From positions 3,696,756 to 3,760,755 of the forward strand of contig JBBCGJ010000001.1 of assembly GCA_037200985.1 (NCBI GenBank): a DNA stretch of 64,000 nucleotides. The letters are read 5' to 3'. The notes below the pieces were generated by a model. That model did no database searches. It was not told the origin of the DNA and saw nothing but the letters and a program-made list of their open reading frames with translations. Shown in pieces: positions 57,304 through 62,117 of this stretch; the first letter of the stretch is position 1, and every line of letters starts with the position of its first letter. This stretch comes from Rhizomicrobium sp. (GTDB lineage: Bacteria > Pseudomonadota > Alphaproteobacteria > Micropepsales > Micropepsaceae). The position numbers and the translations under genes were made by a program.

Positions 57304-57380
57304 GCACCCGTAGCTCAGCTGGATAGAGCATCAGACTACGAATCTGAGGGTCAGGAGTTCGAATCTCTTCGGGTGCGCCA
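57304..57380 (+). tRNA. tRNA-Arg (anticodon ACG)
   Basis: The 77-nt sequence starts GCACCCG and ends CGGGTGC-G-CCA with the acceptor arm paired. D arm AGCTCAGCTGGATAGAGC, anticodon stem TCAGA/TCTGA with loop CTACGAA giving ACG, and T arm with GAGTTCGAATCTC. The CCA end is encoded. The riboflavin genes begin directly downstream. Confidence 0.96.
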
Positions 57381-57443: not shown

Positions 57444-57475
57444 CCCGCCTCAGTCAGACCCCGCCTCAGTCAGAC
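57444..57475. repeat. 16-bp tandem duplication at the end of ribA
   Basis: CCCGCCTCAGTCAGAC occurs twice in a row. The second copy contains the ribA stop codon, so the duplication looks recent and lies at the very edge of the riboflavin island. Confidence 0.8.
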
Positions 57476-58089
57476 AAAGTCGGAAAGGCTGCCCGCTTCG
57501 CCGCGATATATCTGCCGTTATAGGGCGTGAGATAAGCCGGTGTCGCCACGCGCTCGCGCACGACAATGCCGTGCTTCTCCAATTGCGCGATCTTGTCGGG
57601 GTTGTCCGTGATCAGGCGTATTTCCGTCGCCCCCGCGGCGCGCAGCATGGCCGCCGCCGCGGAATAGTCCCGCAGATCCGCCGGCAATCCGAGTTCGCGG
57701 TTCGCCGCGAAGGTATCGAAGCCTTCGTCTTGCAAGCGGTAGGCGGACAATTTTTTGTAGAGACCGATTCCTCTGCCTTCCTGGCGCAAGTAGACGAGGA
57801 AGCCACCCTGCGAAGACATGCGCTCCAGCGCGCCGGTCAATTGCTGGCCGCAATCGCAGCGCAGCGACCCGAACAGATCGCCCGTCAGGCATTCGGAATG
57901 CACGCGCACCAGGGGCGCCGCCGTCCGGTCCGGCTCGCCGACGATGATCAGCAGATGCTCTTTCTGTTCGTCCAGCCCGGTGAAACTGCAAAACCGGACC
58001 GTGCTGCGAATCCGCGCGATCGGAATCGCGACGGTCTCCGCGATTTTCGGGGAGCGATCCGCCGGCCCATCGATCTCGATCCGTGTCAT
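57466..58089 (-). CDS. ribA: GTP cyclohydrolase II
   Basis: First committed step of riboflavin synthesis. The 207-residue stand-alone enzyme has VHSECLTGDLFGSLRCDCGQ with the zinc cysteines 67, 78 and 80, and the GTP-binding RQEGRGIGL at 102-110. The start at 58089 (MTRIEIDGPADR) fits; the longer frame continues into the opposite gene. It is divergent from the fused HTH-RibB gene and shares a 75-bp promoter region with it. Confidence 0.94.
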   Translation of the reverse strand: MTRIEIDGPADRSPKIAETVAIPIARIRSTVRFCSFTGLDEQKEHLLIIVGEPDRTAAPLVRVHSECLTGDLFGSLRCDCGQQLTGALERMSSQGGFLVYLRQEGRGIGLYKKLSAYRLQDEGFDTFAANRELGLPADLRDYSAAAAMLRAAGATEIRLITDNPDKIAQLEKHGIVVRERVATPAYLTPYNGRYIAAKRAAFPTLSD

Positions 58090-58110
58090 TGCCGCCCCAA
58101 GGATTGCCTT

Positions 58111-58128
58111 TTCGAATATTTCGAATAT
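58111..58128. promoter_or_regulatory. tandem 9-mer, candidate operator between ribA and the HTH-RibB gene
   Basis: TTCGAATAT occurs twice head to tail in a very AT-rich stretch (58108-58150), unlike the rest of the window. Each unit contains the palindrome TTCGAA. It lies midway between two divergent riboflavin genes, one of which codes for a DNA-binding domain, so it is the obvious binding-site candidate. Confidence 0.5.
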
Positions 58129-58164
58129 CATACATACGATACAAACGAAACAGGCCGGCTGTAA

Positions 58165-59664
58165 ATGGCCCGATACGGGGAAATTCCGACCAGATCCGAG
58201 GTCGCGCTGGCGCAGGCGGCCAAGCGTGTCTTGGGTCAGGCCCATGGCGGCCCGGCGCGGGTTTCGCACGCCGCGCACAAATCCGCCGTGCTGCCCGAAG
58301 CGGCGTTCCAGGTCCTGCTCGAAACCCTCGGCCAGATGGCGCGCGGCAACGTCGTCGCCGTCACGCCGCTGGAGGCGAGCCTGACCACGCAGCAGGCCGC
58401 GGAGCTTCTGGGCGTGTCGCGGCCGCATCTGGTGAAATTGCTGGAATCGGGCGCCATTCCCTATCGCAAGACCGGCAAGCACAGGCGCGTCAGCCTGAGC
58501 GACCTCAATGCCTATCGCTCACCGAACCACGCCGCGGCGGAGGGACTCATGAAGCTCGACACGGTGGATGACGCGATCCGGGCGATCGCGCGCGGCGAGA
58601 TGGTCGTCGTGGTCGATGACGACGACCGGGAGAACGAAGGCGATCTGATCGTCGCCGCGTCGAAGGTCACGACCGAGCAGGTCGCCTTCATGGTCCGCCA
58701 CACCAGCGGCATCCTGTGCGCCCCCCTCACGCGGGAACGCGCGCAGCACCTGCAACTGGAGCCCATGGTGCGCGAGAACAGCGCGCCGCTGCGGACCGCC
58801 TTCACCGTCTCGGTGGACTACCGGGACGGACTGACCACCGGCGTTTCCGCAAGCGAGCGCACCAACACCGTCCGCGCCCTGGCGAACGGCAATGTGGCGG
58901 CGGGCGATTTCGTGCGCCCCGGCCATGTCTTCCCGCTGATCTCCGAGGAGGGCGGGGTGCTCATGCGCTCGGGCCACACCGAAGCGACGACGGACCTCGC
59001 GCGTCTCGCGGGCCTGCCGCCAATCGGCCTCCTGGGCGAGCTCGTCAACGACGACGGCACGCTCAAGCGGCTCCCGCAGCTCGTCGCCTTCGCCAGGGAG
59101 CACGGGCTGGCGATCGTCTCGATCGCCGATCTGATCGCCTATCGCCGGGCGCGCGAGAAGCTGGTCCGGCGGATTTCGGAGTTTGAAATCGCCACGGAAA
59201 TCGGACCAACGAAGGCGGTCGCCTATGCGACGGCGTTCGACACCGTGCAGCATCTCGCCCTGGTGTTCGGCGACATTCAAACCGGTAGGCCGGTCCCGGT
59301 GCGCATCCACCGCCAGGAGGTGATTTCCGACGTCTTCGGGCAGACGCCCAATCTCATTTCCGCGGCCCTGCGGATCATGAAAGCGGAAGGCGGCGGCGTG
59401 CTGGTCTATCTGCGCGAAGGCGCGTCGGGCGTCGCCGCGCCGGCTTGGAGCGATCCGCCCGCCGCCGCGCATCGCAGCGAAGTCCGGCGCGAGAAGCAAT
59501 GGCGCGAGGTCGGGATCGGGGCCCAGATACTGAAGGATCTGGGGCTGGGCGCGATCAAGCTCCTCACCACGCACCGGCTGGACTATGCCGGCCTCGCGGG
59601 CTTCGACATCCAGATCGCCGAGAGCGAGATCATCGGTTCGCAAGCTTCGGGCGAACCCGGCTGA
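58165..59664 (+). CDS. ribB: fusion: excisionase/antitoxin-type HTH domain + RibB (DHBP synthase) + degenerate RibA domain
   Basis: The 499-residue frame has three parts. Residues 1-127 resemble excisionase-family antitoxins: SLTTQQAAELLGVSRPHLVK at 72-91 and IPYRKTGKHRRVSLSDLNAY to 117. Residues 129-325 are DHBP synthase, with DDDDRENEGDL at 151-161, HTSGILC and RSGHTEATTDLA. Residues 340-490 look like GTP cyclohydrolase II but lack all three zinc cysteines (RQEVISDVFG where SECLTGDLFG is expected), so they are probably inactive. An internal ATG at 58549 follows GGAGGG and could also make RibB without the HTH. Confidence 0.85.
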   Translation: MARYGEIPTRSEVALAQAAKRVLGQAHGGPARVSHAAHKSAVLPEAAFQVLLETLGQMARGNVVAVTPLEASLTTQQAAELLGVSRPHLVKLLESGAIPYRKTGKHRRVSLSDLNAYRSPNHAAAEGLMKLDTVDDAIRAIARGEMVVVVDDDDRENEGDLIVAASKVTTEQVAFMVRHTSGILCAPLTRERAQHLQLEPMVRENSAPLRTAFTVSVDYRDGLTTGVSASERTNTVRALANGNVAAGDFVRPGHVFPLISEEGGVLMRSGHTEATTDLARLAGLPPIGLLGELVNDDGTLKRLPQLVAFAREHGLAIVSIADLIAYRRAREKLVRRISEFEIATEIGPTKAVAYATAFDTVQHLALVFGDIQTGRPVPVRIHRQEVISDVFGQTPNLISAALRIMKAEGGGVLVYLREGASGVAAPAWSDPPAAAHRSEVRREKQWREVGIGAQILKDLGLGAIKLLTTHRLDYAGLAGFDIQIAESEIIGSQASGEPG

Positions 59665-59678
59665 CGAAGGAGCATGCG

Positions 59679-60164
59679 ATGACGAAGAAACTGGGAATTG
59701 TCGATACGAGCTTCGCGCGAATCGACATGGGCGGCATCGCCCTCGAATACCTCAACGACTCGGCCGGCGACGATATCGCATGCGTCCGGGTGACCGTTCC
59801 CGGCTTCAAGGACCTCGCGGTCGAAGCGAAGCGGCTGGTGGAAGAGGATCGCTGCGACATGGTCCTGGCGATGGGCTGGTCCGGCGGCGCCGCGCTCGAC
59901 GCCAACTCGGCGCAGATCGCTTCGGCCGGGATCATGCTGGCGCAGCTTCTGACCGGACGCCACATCCTCGAAGTCTTCGTCCATGCCGACGAGGCCCCGA
60001 ACGACGAGACGCGGCTTCGCGCGATTGCCGAGGGCCGGGTGCGCGGCCATTGCGAGAACGCGCTGCGGATGCTGCGCGACCGGTTCGCGCTGGTCGGCCG
60101 CGCCGGCACGGGCCGCCGGCAGGGCGAGCGCGATGCGGGTCCGCTTCCGCTCCAAGGGCGTTGA
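59679..60164 (+). CDS. ribC: riboflavin synthase, archaeal RibC type
   Basis: The 161-residue product reads KKLGIVDTSFARIDMGGIAL, then RVTVPGFKDLAVEAKRLVEE, GIMLAQLLTGRHILEVFVHA-DEA and a C-terminal AGTGRRQGERDAGP. These match the archaeal (Methanocaldococcus MJ1184) riboflavin synthase family, a paralogue of lumazine synthase, and not bacterial RibE. AAGGAG lies 6 nt before the ATG at 59679, 14 bp after the HTH-RibB stop, so the two are one operon. Confidence 0.85.
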   Translation: MTKKLGIVDTSFARIDMGGIALEYLNDSAGDDIACVRVTVPGFKDLAVEAKRLVEEDRCDMVLAMGWSGGAALDANSAQIASAGIMLAQLLTGRHILEVFVHADEAPNDETRLRAIAEGRVRGHCENALRMLRDRFALVGRAGTGRRQGERDAGPLPLQGR

Positions 60165-60486: not shown

Positions 60487-61899
60487 TCAATCCGCGCGCG
60501 TCTGGAACTCGAACCGGCAGCAAACGCCCTCCGGCTCGAAGAGCAGGCTGGTGCTGCCGTTCTGCTCCGCGGCCACCGCGGATTTGATGACGCGGCTTCC
60601 GAATCCGCTTCGCGTGGGGACGCTCACGATGGGCTCTCCGCCGCGCTCCGTCCATTCGATCGCGACGCGCCCCGCATCGTCCACGGACCAGTGCAGGGAA
60701 ACCCGCCCCGCCGCCGTCTTGAGGGCGCCGTATTTGATCGCGTTCGTCGCGAGTTCGTGGACCGCCAGGGCAAGGCCGCCGGCGGTCGTCTCCGACACTT
60801 CGACATGCGGTCCGCCCATGGCGATCTGCGCCTGATTGGGATCGACGAAAGGCTGCAGCGCCATCTCGAACAGCTGCTGGAGCGAGGCCTGCCGCGACGC
60901 CGAGCCGACGACGATTTCGCCGCTGGACAGAAGGGCGCGCAGCCGCCCGACGAACATATCGAGCACGGCTTGCGCTTCCGGCGCGTCCTTGGGGCGCGAC
61001 TGCCGCGCGATGGCATCGACCACCGCCACGAAATTGCGGGTGCGGTGCTTCATCTCGCCCAGAAGAAGTTCTTGCTGCTCCTGCGCGCGCCGGCGCTCCG
61101 AAATGTCCCGGGCGATCTTGGACGCGCCGATCACCCGTCCGCTCGAATCCTTGATCGGCGACACCGTGATCGAAAGCTCGATCGGGCTGCCGTCCTTGCG
61201 GCGGCGGATGGTCTCGTAGTGATCGACGCGCTCGTTGCGCCGGATCTTGCTGAGGATGACCGCTTCCTCGTCGAGGCGGTCCTGCGGGATGAGAATGGAG
61301 ATGTGCCGCCCCACGACCTCGTCCGCCGTATACCCGAACACGCGCTCCGCCGCCCGGTTCCAGCTCGAAATTATCCCGTTGAGGTCCTTGCCGACGATCG
61401 CATCGTCGGACGACTCCACGATCGCGGACAGGCGCTCGCGGATTTCCTCCGCCTTCTTGAACTCGCTGATCTCCACCAGCATGTTCACGGCGCCGATCAG
61501 CGTGCCGGCGTCGTCGAACAGCGGCGTGGGGTAGGGAAGGAACGGCACGCGCGTCCCGTCGGGCCGCTCGGCGATGGCCTCCATGCCGCGCACGATCCGC
61601 CGCTCCTTGACGGCGATGGCCATCGGACAGGCGCCATGCGGAAGCGGCGTGCCGTCGGGCCAATAGAGTTTCCACGAACCGCACCACTCGCTCGTCCCGA
61701 GCGGCGGGCTGTGCCCCCAAAGCGAGGCGGCTGCCCGATTGTAGTAGGTGATGCGGCCCGACGCGTCGGTCGTATAAATCGCGGCCGGAAGCTCGTCGAG
61801 AACCTTGCGGAAGTACCGGTCGCGCGAAACGACCGCTTCGCCTGCATAGGGAATGGCTTGCCCCGCTGGCGCTATGTCTGTACGCGTCGTGCTCTTCAT
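60487..61899 (-). CDS. PAS-containing HWE-family sensor histidine kinase
   Basis: The 470-residue product has two PAS domains (about 20-150 and 155-275; ELPAAIYTTDASGRITYYNR and VESSDDAIVGKDLNGIISSW), then an HWE-type kinase core: MKHRTRNFVAVVDAIARQS with the phospho-His, HELATNAIKYGAL (N box) and the WTERGGEP motif. No membrane segment, so it is cytoplasmic. No LOV cysteine motif. No response regulator is adjacent. Confidence 0.9.
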   Translation of the reverse strand: MKSTTRTDIAPAGQAIPYAGEAVVSRDRYFRKVLDELPAAIYTTDASGRITYYNRAAASLWGHSPPLGTSEWCGSWKLYWPDGTPLPHGACPMAIAVKERRIVRGMEAIAERPDGTRVPFLPYPTPLFDDAGTLIGAVNMLVEISEFKKAEEIRERLSAIVESSDDAIVGKDLNGIISSWNRAAERVFGYTADEVVGRHISILIPQDRLDEEAVILSKIRRNERVDHYETIRRRKDGSPIELSITVSPIKDSSGRVIGASKIARDISERRRAQEQQELLLGEMKHRTRNFVAVVDAIARQSRPKDAPEAQAVLDMFVGRLRALLSSGEIVVGSASRQASLQQLFEMALQPFVDPNQAQIAMGGPHVEVSETTAGGLALAVHELATNAIKYGALKTAAGRVSLHWSVDDAGRVAIEWTERGGEPIVSVPTRSGFGSRVIKSAVAAEQNGSTSLLFEPEGVCCRFEFQTRAD

Positions 61900-62117
61900 C
61901 GAACAATCTACCGCTTTTGCGGTCAAAGAGCCATGGCGGCCGATCTTCCGGCATTTTTGCAGCCCTTTTCAAGCGGAAAACAATTCAAGCATGCCGAAGC
62001 CGGACGATCGTTGTTTCATCGGCCGGCGGTCGCAGGCAACGTCGTCCCGTCGGTTCGCCGCGCGAAGTTTCCAGGAGAAACGCGCCAGCGCCTTGTGCCC
62101 TGTCGCTGTCGCAATCC

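Follow-up and report, generated by a model that had tools for sequence, protein, structure and literature searches.

A putative enzyme-repressor in Rhizomicrobium: the riboflavin enzyme RibBX joined to the DNA-binding part of an antitoxin

Why should an enzyme of riboflavin biosynthesis carry a DNA-binding domain? The question is raised by a gene within 64,000 nucleotides of Rhizomicrobium sp. DNA, the whole stretch that we analyzed and here call the window. The genome to which it belongs measures 4.64 Mb and is designated G000. The gene and its parts are as follows.

58165..59664, + strand: HTH_17-RibBX fusion gene, 499 amino acids, ATG start, one unbroken open reading frame
58165..58374, + strand: N-terminal arm (residues 1-70), common to solo antitoxins by alignment, homologues being 31-53% identical over their matched parts
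58375..58518, + strand: winged helix-turn-helix (HTH) of the HTH_17 family (residues 71-118; Pfam, NCBIfam), whose model is closest to BldC and Xis
58519..58548, + strand: linker (residues 119-128), aligned in place of the C-terminal tail of solo antitoxins
58549..59661, + strand: RibBX part, with DHBP synthase (residues 136-326) and a zinc-less X domain (residues 336-486)

An initial sequence-only reading had described an HTH of the antitoxin or excisionase kind, joined to DHBP synthase and a zinc-less domain, and domain searches bear out this make-up. Pfam places HTH_17 at residues 73-117 (6.8e-13), DHBP_synthase at residues 136-326 (4.5e-81; complete, with model positions 2-191 of 191) and GTP_cyclohydro2 at residues 336-486 (2.1e-30). 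With NCBIfam, the "excise" model exceeds its cut-off at residues 73-117, as does the ribB model (226.9 bits versus 177.45), and the ribA model falls far below its cut-off on the third domain (33.5 bits versus 205.85). The REnEGD and GHTEA motifs, presumably catalytic in DHBP synthase, are invariant or nearly so in a 36-sequence alignment. In an alignment to 4i14, the C-terminal domain lacks the zinc-site cysteines of the cyclohydrolase, which we take to be the zinc ligands. PDB matches of the enzyme part are RibA2 of Mtb (4i14) and RibBX of A. baumannii (6mnz). Because of its domain make-up, the sub-cut-off ribA score and these PDB matches, the enzyme part is, as judged by sequence, RibBX, the already described form of RibB in which the X domain is inactive. 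A model of the full-length fusion (mean pLDDT, 80.1) has the RibBX fold; an alignment for structure prediction in which RibBX and solo antitoxins were combined (A2) looked misaligned and was set aside. In the part of PMC10012899 available to us, the cyclohydrolase-like X domain of RibBX proteins in general lacks the zinc cysteines, and X is said to affect RibB by a mechanism described as unknown.

The whole HTH_17-RibBX fusion was found in three members of one genus, out of 96 genomes searched in the family: G000, G067 (90% identity over residues 1-499) and G019 (65% identity over residues 5-492). The relatives thus carry the same fusion, not separate genes with a stop between them. A sequencing error as the cause is excluded, since the hidden stop codon considered in the sequence-only reading is present at the junction of HTH and RibB in none of the three genomes, and the linker differs among them by whole codons only. 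For the HTH, dN/dS is 0.079 between G000 and G067 and 0.36 between G000 and G019, the more distant pair, in which dS is near saturation; the corresponding values are 0.17 and 0.53 for the arm, 0.081 and 0.16 for RibB, and 0.11 and 0.30 for X. By these sequence measures, the fusion is real and conserved, and is under purifying selection. A tree of 89 RibBX rows, built by a quick method with L054 dropped as too short and L120-L147 not included, groups the three fusions in a single clade (SH-aLRT 100). No HTH_17 fusion occurs among the best 80 of 394 relatives in a contig scan from which records close to the window's genome may be missing. Because its ancestor is rare (3 of 96 genomes), the role of the fusion is local.

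The origin of the HTH is indicated by its homologues. Stand-alone proteins 140-165 residues long align with residues 1-120 at 31-53% identity over the matched part, and in 5 of 5 loci checked with Pfam, these are HTH_17 proteins directly adjoining a PIN_3 gene; we therefore regard them as antitoxins. Alignment shows that invariant SRP and GxHRR residues are common to the fusion and the solo antitoxins, and that the fusion retains the arm and HTH without the antitoxins' C-terminal tail. On this alignment evidence, the HTH part is of antitoxin ancestry. Genome searches found no PIN_3 gene in G000, G067 or G019 (the last a 98% complete draft); PIN_3 is present where solo antitoxins occur (two in G066, one in G029). 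The next gene after the fusion is ribC, not a PIN_3 toxin gene. It is very improbable that the fused protein still acts as an antitoxin against a PIN toxin, the enzyme being passenger or ballast: residues 1-120 are homologous to PIN_3 antitoxins, which favors such a function, but the antitoxin tail and, in the searches just described, the PIN_3 gene are both missing, and we rejected it.

The features in and beside the 75-bp gap between the fusion and the divergent ribA gene (58090-58164) are as follows.

57466..58089, - strand: ribA, stand-alone GTP cyclohydrolase II, 207 amino acids
58110..58127, + strand: candidate operator, two 9-bp direct repeats TTTCGAATA, 28.7 bits with the solo-antitoxin motif
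58133..58150, - strand: inverted copy of the operator, weak (12.7 bits) and ranking third among the positions of the window
58104..58131, + strand: fusion-gene promoter, sigma-70-like, TTGCCT-16-TATCAT; its spacer is filled by the operator, which also overlaps the -10 element
58136..58165, - strand: sigma-70-like promoter of ribA, TTTACA-18-TATCGT, from a promoter scan

A tandem 9-bp repeat was seen by eye in the promoters of solo antitoxins. We fitted a tied two-copy motif to 24 such promoters, with the fusions excluded from training (L165, identical in sequence to L164, was omitted and L180 was too short; the near-copies L181/L185 and L167/L168 were retained). The motif consensus is TTTCGAATA twice, and a site was found in 23 of the 24 promoters, with none in L184. 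A scan of periods from 6 to 14 peaks at 9 (score, 370.7; next best, 325.4; shuffled promoters, 204.0). Across the solo antitoxin loci (L160-L185), operators resembling TTTCGAATA occur as two to four tandem copies. In the literature that we searched, we found no description of a direct-repeat operator of HTH_17 antitoxins.

This motif, trained on solo antitoxins, scores 28.7, 28.2 and 25.3 bits in the fusion promoters of G000, G067 and G019, respectively; the runner-up in the window has 13.3 bits, and no score as high as 25.3 occurs among 1,669,116 background positions. The G019 operator differs in sequence, yet still fits the motif. When the consensus TKCGNWTATTKCGNWTAT was searched with at most two mismatches, G000 had 19 sites (reversed control, 3), G067 had 15 (control, 7) and G019 had 10 (control, 4). 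The sole mismatch-free site genome-wide is the fusion promoter in both G000 and G067; G019 has no mismatch-free site, and its single one-mismatch site is again the fusion promoter. Positions 58110-58150 are identical to G067 at 39 of 41 nucleotides, versus 18 of 34 in the remainder of the gap.

The gap holds two promoter-like sites, in divergent orientation (shuffle mean, 0.1), and the weak inverted operator copy overlaps the -10 element of the ribA promoter. Operator and promoter are arranged as expected of a repressor, and from this geometry we infer the sign of regulation. Because the operator transferred from solo antitoxins matches there, it is very probable that the fused protein binds its own promoter. 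The sequence-only suggestion that the protein regulates its own divergent promoter thereby gains support, since the putative antitoxin-type operator lies inside the gap. The operator could have arrived together with a captured antitoxin promoter. Other targets of the fused HTH are possible, given the 19 sites in G000. A non-regulatory HTH, whose role is to anchor the enzyme on DNA or to act at a different site (for example, in a global or integration-linked role), would fit the excisionase-like fold and the 18 further G000 sites with at most two mismatches, but we consider it quite unlikely, since the best site is the protein's own promoter in all three fused genomes. Taking together the antitoxin homology, the operator match in the promoter and the failure to find PIN_3 in the fused genomes, we consider it very probable that an antitoxin was domesticated here and turns RibBX into a repressor of its own gene.

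Structural models suggest how such binding might occur. The model of residues 1-128 (mean pLDDT, 83.1) is closest to BldC (Z, 8.4; rmsd, 1.5; 53 residues), followed by Xis of phage Pukovnik (Z, 8.3) and by RdfS (Z, 7.2, with larger rmsd); Foldseek also ranks BldC first, with a weak E value of 0.066. RibB is a dimer, and its dimerization could bring two HTHs together. According to the part of PMC5859096 available to us, BldC occupies direct repeats of 9 bp in a head-to-tail arrangement, with one protomer per repeat; our 9-bp period had been found before this description was read.

The fusion is not the only RibBX with an HTH. A RibBX-like match (E <= 1e-95) was found in 23 of 385 genomes drawn from the class; among those 23, besides the HTH_17 of G000, a Cro-type HTH is fused at the same place in G136, G358, G164 and G282. 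The same arrangement occurs in four genomes of genus g6, in the family of the window, and at no fewer than 14 loci among the best 80 of 394 relatives, including Aestuariivirga, Anderseniella and Labrys. In total, at least 22 alphaproteobacterial proteins are Cro-type HTH-RibBX fusions, and their HTH is unrelated to HTH_17. The earlier statement that RibB elsewhere has no DNA-binding part was therefore wrong. An assignment of the Cro-type HTH to YdaS was rejected: Pfam YdaS scores are below threshold, and HTH_3 passes in two of eight Cro-type proteins scanned. The 22 Cro-type loci (L008-L011, L051-L053, L056, L071-L118) have an internal start, and an annotation beginning there would hide the fusion. 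On the RibBX tree, the three labels require six changes and the Cro-type label alone five; starred branches force four of these five, whether as gains or losses. These independent fusions of an unrelated HTH at the same position of RibBX count in favor of an enzyme-repressor.

Cro-type fusions also have candidate operators. In 13 of the 22, a TTAG-type palindrome begins 23-26 bp before the start codon, and in a shuffle test of palindromes in the upstream 60 bp, 11 of 22 fused genes were significant (p <= 0.05), compared with 2 of 22 unfused genes. In L102, which is among the 11, the palindrome differs from the TTAGC one, and both significant unfused genes share one Methylobacterium hairpin. 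The same test found no significant palindrome in the four g6 genomes, L052, L056 or L095. With at most one mismatch, the TTAGC pattern has 10 sites in 10 genomes (reversed control, 9), and 9 of the 10 begin 23-26 bp before the start codon of the fused gene; because the genome-wide count is about that of the control, the operator argument rests on position. Two separate observations are that the Methylobacterium-type RibBX genes L055 and L066, which have no HTH, share the hairpin CTCCTCCCCGCAAGGGGGAGGAG just upstream, and that a second TTAGC palindrome, with one mismatch, lies away from RibBX at L207 (G478:C35:72739-72755).

A search of 19 Cro-type genomes, those from the contig scan being of unstated completeness, found no DHBP synthase besides the fused one in 13 of them, so the fused enzyme must be active there if riboflavin is made. 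A further DHBP synthase is present in the other six Cro-type genomes and in all three HTH_17-type genomes.

Within the fusion gene lies a second possible start of translation.

58539..58543, + strand: internal Shine-Dalgarno sequence GGAGG before ATG 58549, duplex -10.0 kcal/mol

ATG 58549 is at the usual RibBX start position. An internal Shine-Dalgarno sequence of -4 kcal/mol or better precedes this position in 22 of 24 fused genes (L008 and L010 are the exceptions; L089, which contains Ns, was omitted). The corresponding share is 24% among 456 control windows taken from within these genes and 70% among the starts of 20 unfused RibBX genes. It is likely, from these sequence signals, that two products are made: a long DNA-binding form and a short form with the enzyme only. 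The strong internal start, with its recurrence in 22 of 24 genes, would also suit an HTH that is a relic, in a decaying upstream frame, with RibBX translated from the internal ATG as the working product. We consider such decay unlikely, because the dN/dS of the HTH is as low as that of RibB in the G000-G067 comparison, linker length changes in frame only, the operator is conserved in G067 (39 of 41 positions) and G019 carries a fusion that is 65% identical. Also against decay, the 22 Cro-type fusions show eight different lengths of HTH plus linker, and no separate upstream HTH gene of these kinds was found at 64 unfused RibBX loci, save one 10-residue match, in a search that recovers 22 of 22 fused cases and for which some loci had little upstream DNA (107 bases at least).

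The neighboring genes are as follows.

59679..60164, + strand: ribC, archaeal-type riboflavin synthase (TIGR01506), 164 bits versus a cut-off of 100.55
57304-57377, + strand: tRNA gene adjoining the 3' end of ribA (Rfam)
60487-61926, - strand: gene for a PAS-HWE histidine kinase, beyond the downstream end of ribC and opposite to it in strand (Pfam)

ribC directly follows the fusion on the same strand. An archaeal-type ribC exceeds the cut-off in 1 of 289 genomes of the class, which is G000 itself; the gene was probably acquired horizontally. G000 also has the bacterial-type ribE, and open reading frames inspected by eye indicate a separate housekeeping cluster of ribE, ribBA and ribH around C1:1.493 Mb. 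Since that cluster exists separately, ribA, HTH-ribBX and ribC in the window constitute a second, partial riboflavin set. Their order is the same in G067. Control of ribA is not general, because in G019 the fusion lacks both ribA and ribC as neighbors.

No FMN riboswitch was found in the window or elsewhere in G000. Among 38 genomes that were chosen non-randomly, are related to each other and include four of one genus among the 18 unfused, an FMN riboswitch is present in 2 of 20 with fused RibBX versus 10 of 18 with unfused RibBX (9 over the cut-off). Labrys and one Anderseniella have both the riboswitch and a fused RibBX. The distribution gives a hint that the fusion replaces the riboswitch.

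In the reading that we favor, with a probability of about 0.73, the protein is an enzyme-repressor bound at its own promoter and repressing ribA and the fusion gene. The arm and winged HTH of an HTH_17/PIN_3 system would have been fused in frame to RibBX, and the fusion kept after loss of the toxin. The protein would bind the 9-bp direct repeats at 58110-58127 head to tail, within its own promoter, and also the weaker inverted copy in the divergent ribA promoter, presumably assisted by dimerization through RibB. The outcome would be repression of ribA to one side of the gap and, to the other, of the fusion gene and probably also of ribC. The internal start probably yields plain RibBX as a second product.

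Neither fusion type is described in the literature that we searched; RibBX papers of 2013 and 2021, known to us via the accessible part of PMC10012899, may mention an HTH. The HTH_17 fusion would illustrate cleanly how the DNA-binding module of an antitoxin can be domesticated to regulate an enzyme of housekeeping type. Because the ancestral operator can still be read, the transition from an addiction module to control of metabolism is directly testable. It also points to the second and more widespread set, the Cro-type HTH-RibBX proteins, which are often the only DHBP synthase found. These fusions offer a possible role for the X domain. More tentatively, and at somewhat less than even odds, RibBX may be a recurrent chassis in Alphaproteobacteria for self-regulating riboflavin enzymes, made by separate fusions of unrelated HTHs with operators at their own promoters, in which X or the active site would report the state of the pathway to the HTH, the protein would do the job done elsewhere by the FMN riboswitch RNA and the gene would also yield an HTH-free product.

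Several known systems share parts of this design. Alphaproteobacterial RibBX orthologues are 50-67% identical to the fusion over the matched part, and RibBX of A. baumannii (6mnz) resembles it in sequence, fold and order of domains, and likewise ends in a zinc-less domain; this domain is the X domain of RibBX and is not new. The fusion adds a 128-residue antitoxin-derived DNA-binding arm, for which the part of PMC10012899 available to us has no counterpart in RibBX. HTH_17/PIN_3 antitoxins have in common with the fusion the arm, the winged HTH, the SRP and GxHRR residues and a 9-bp direct-repeat operator, whereas the fusion has an enzyme in place of the toxin-binding tail and PIN_3 partner. 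BldC, RdfS and Xis share the HTH fold of the model, and BldC also shares the 9-bp direct repeats of the operator (PMC5859096, in part). Unlike the fusion, all three are small proteins without an enzyme.

As a kind, the fusion belongs, by its sequence features, with the bifunctional enzyme-repressors. These "trigger enzymes" include PutA, NadR and BirA, as well as archaeal RbkR, an HTH-riboflavin kinase. Like the fusion, they are metabolic enzymes with a DNA-binding domain of their own, and RbkR likewise acts in flavin metabolism. The fusion differs from them in that it is bacterial, its enzyme is DHBP synthase, its HTH families are others and two unrelated HTHs occur on the same enzyme. What is new is the enzyme, the antitoxin ancestry of the DNA-binding part and the repeated assembly of such proteins on RibBX.
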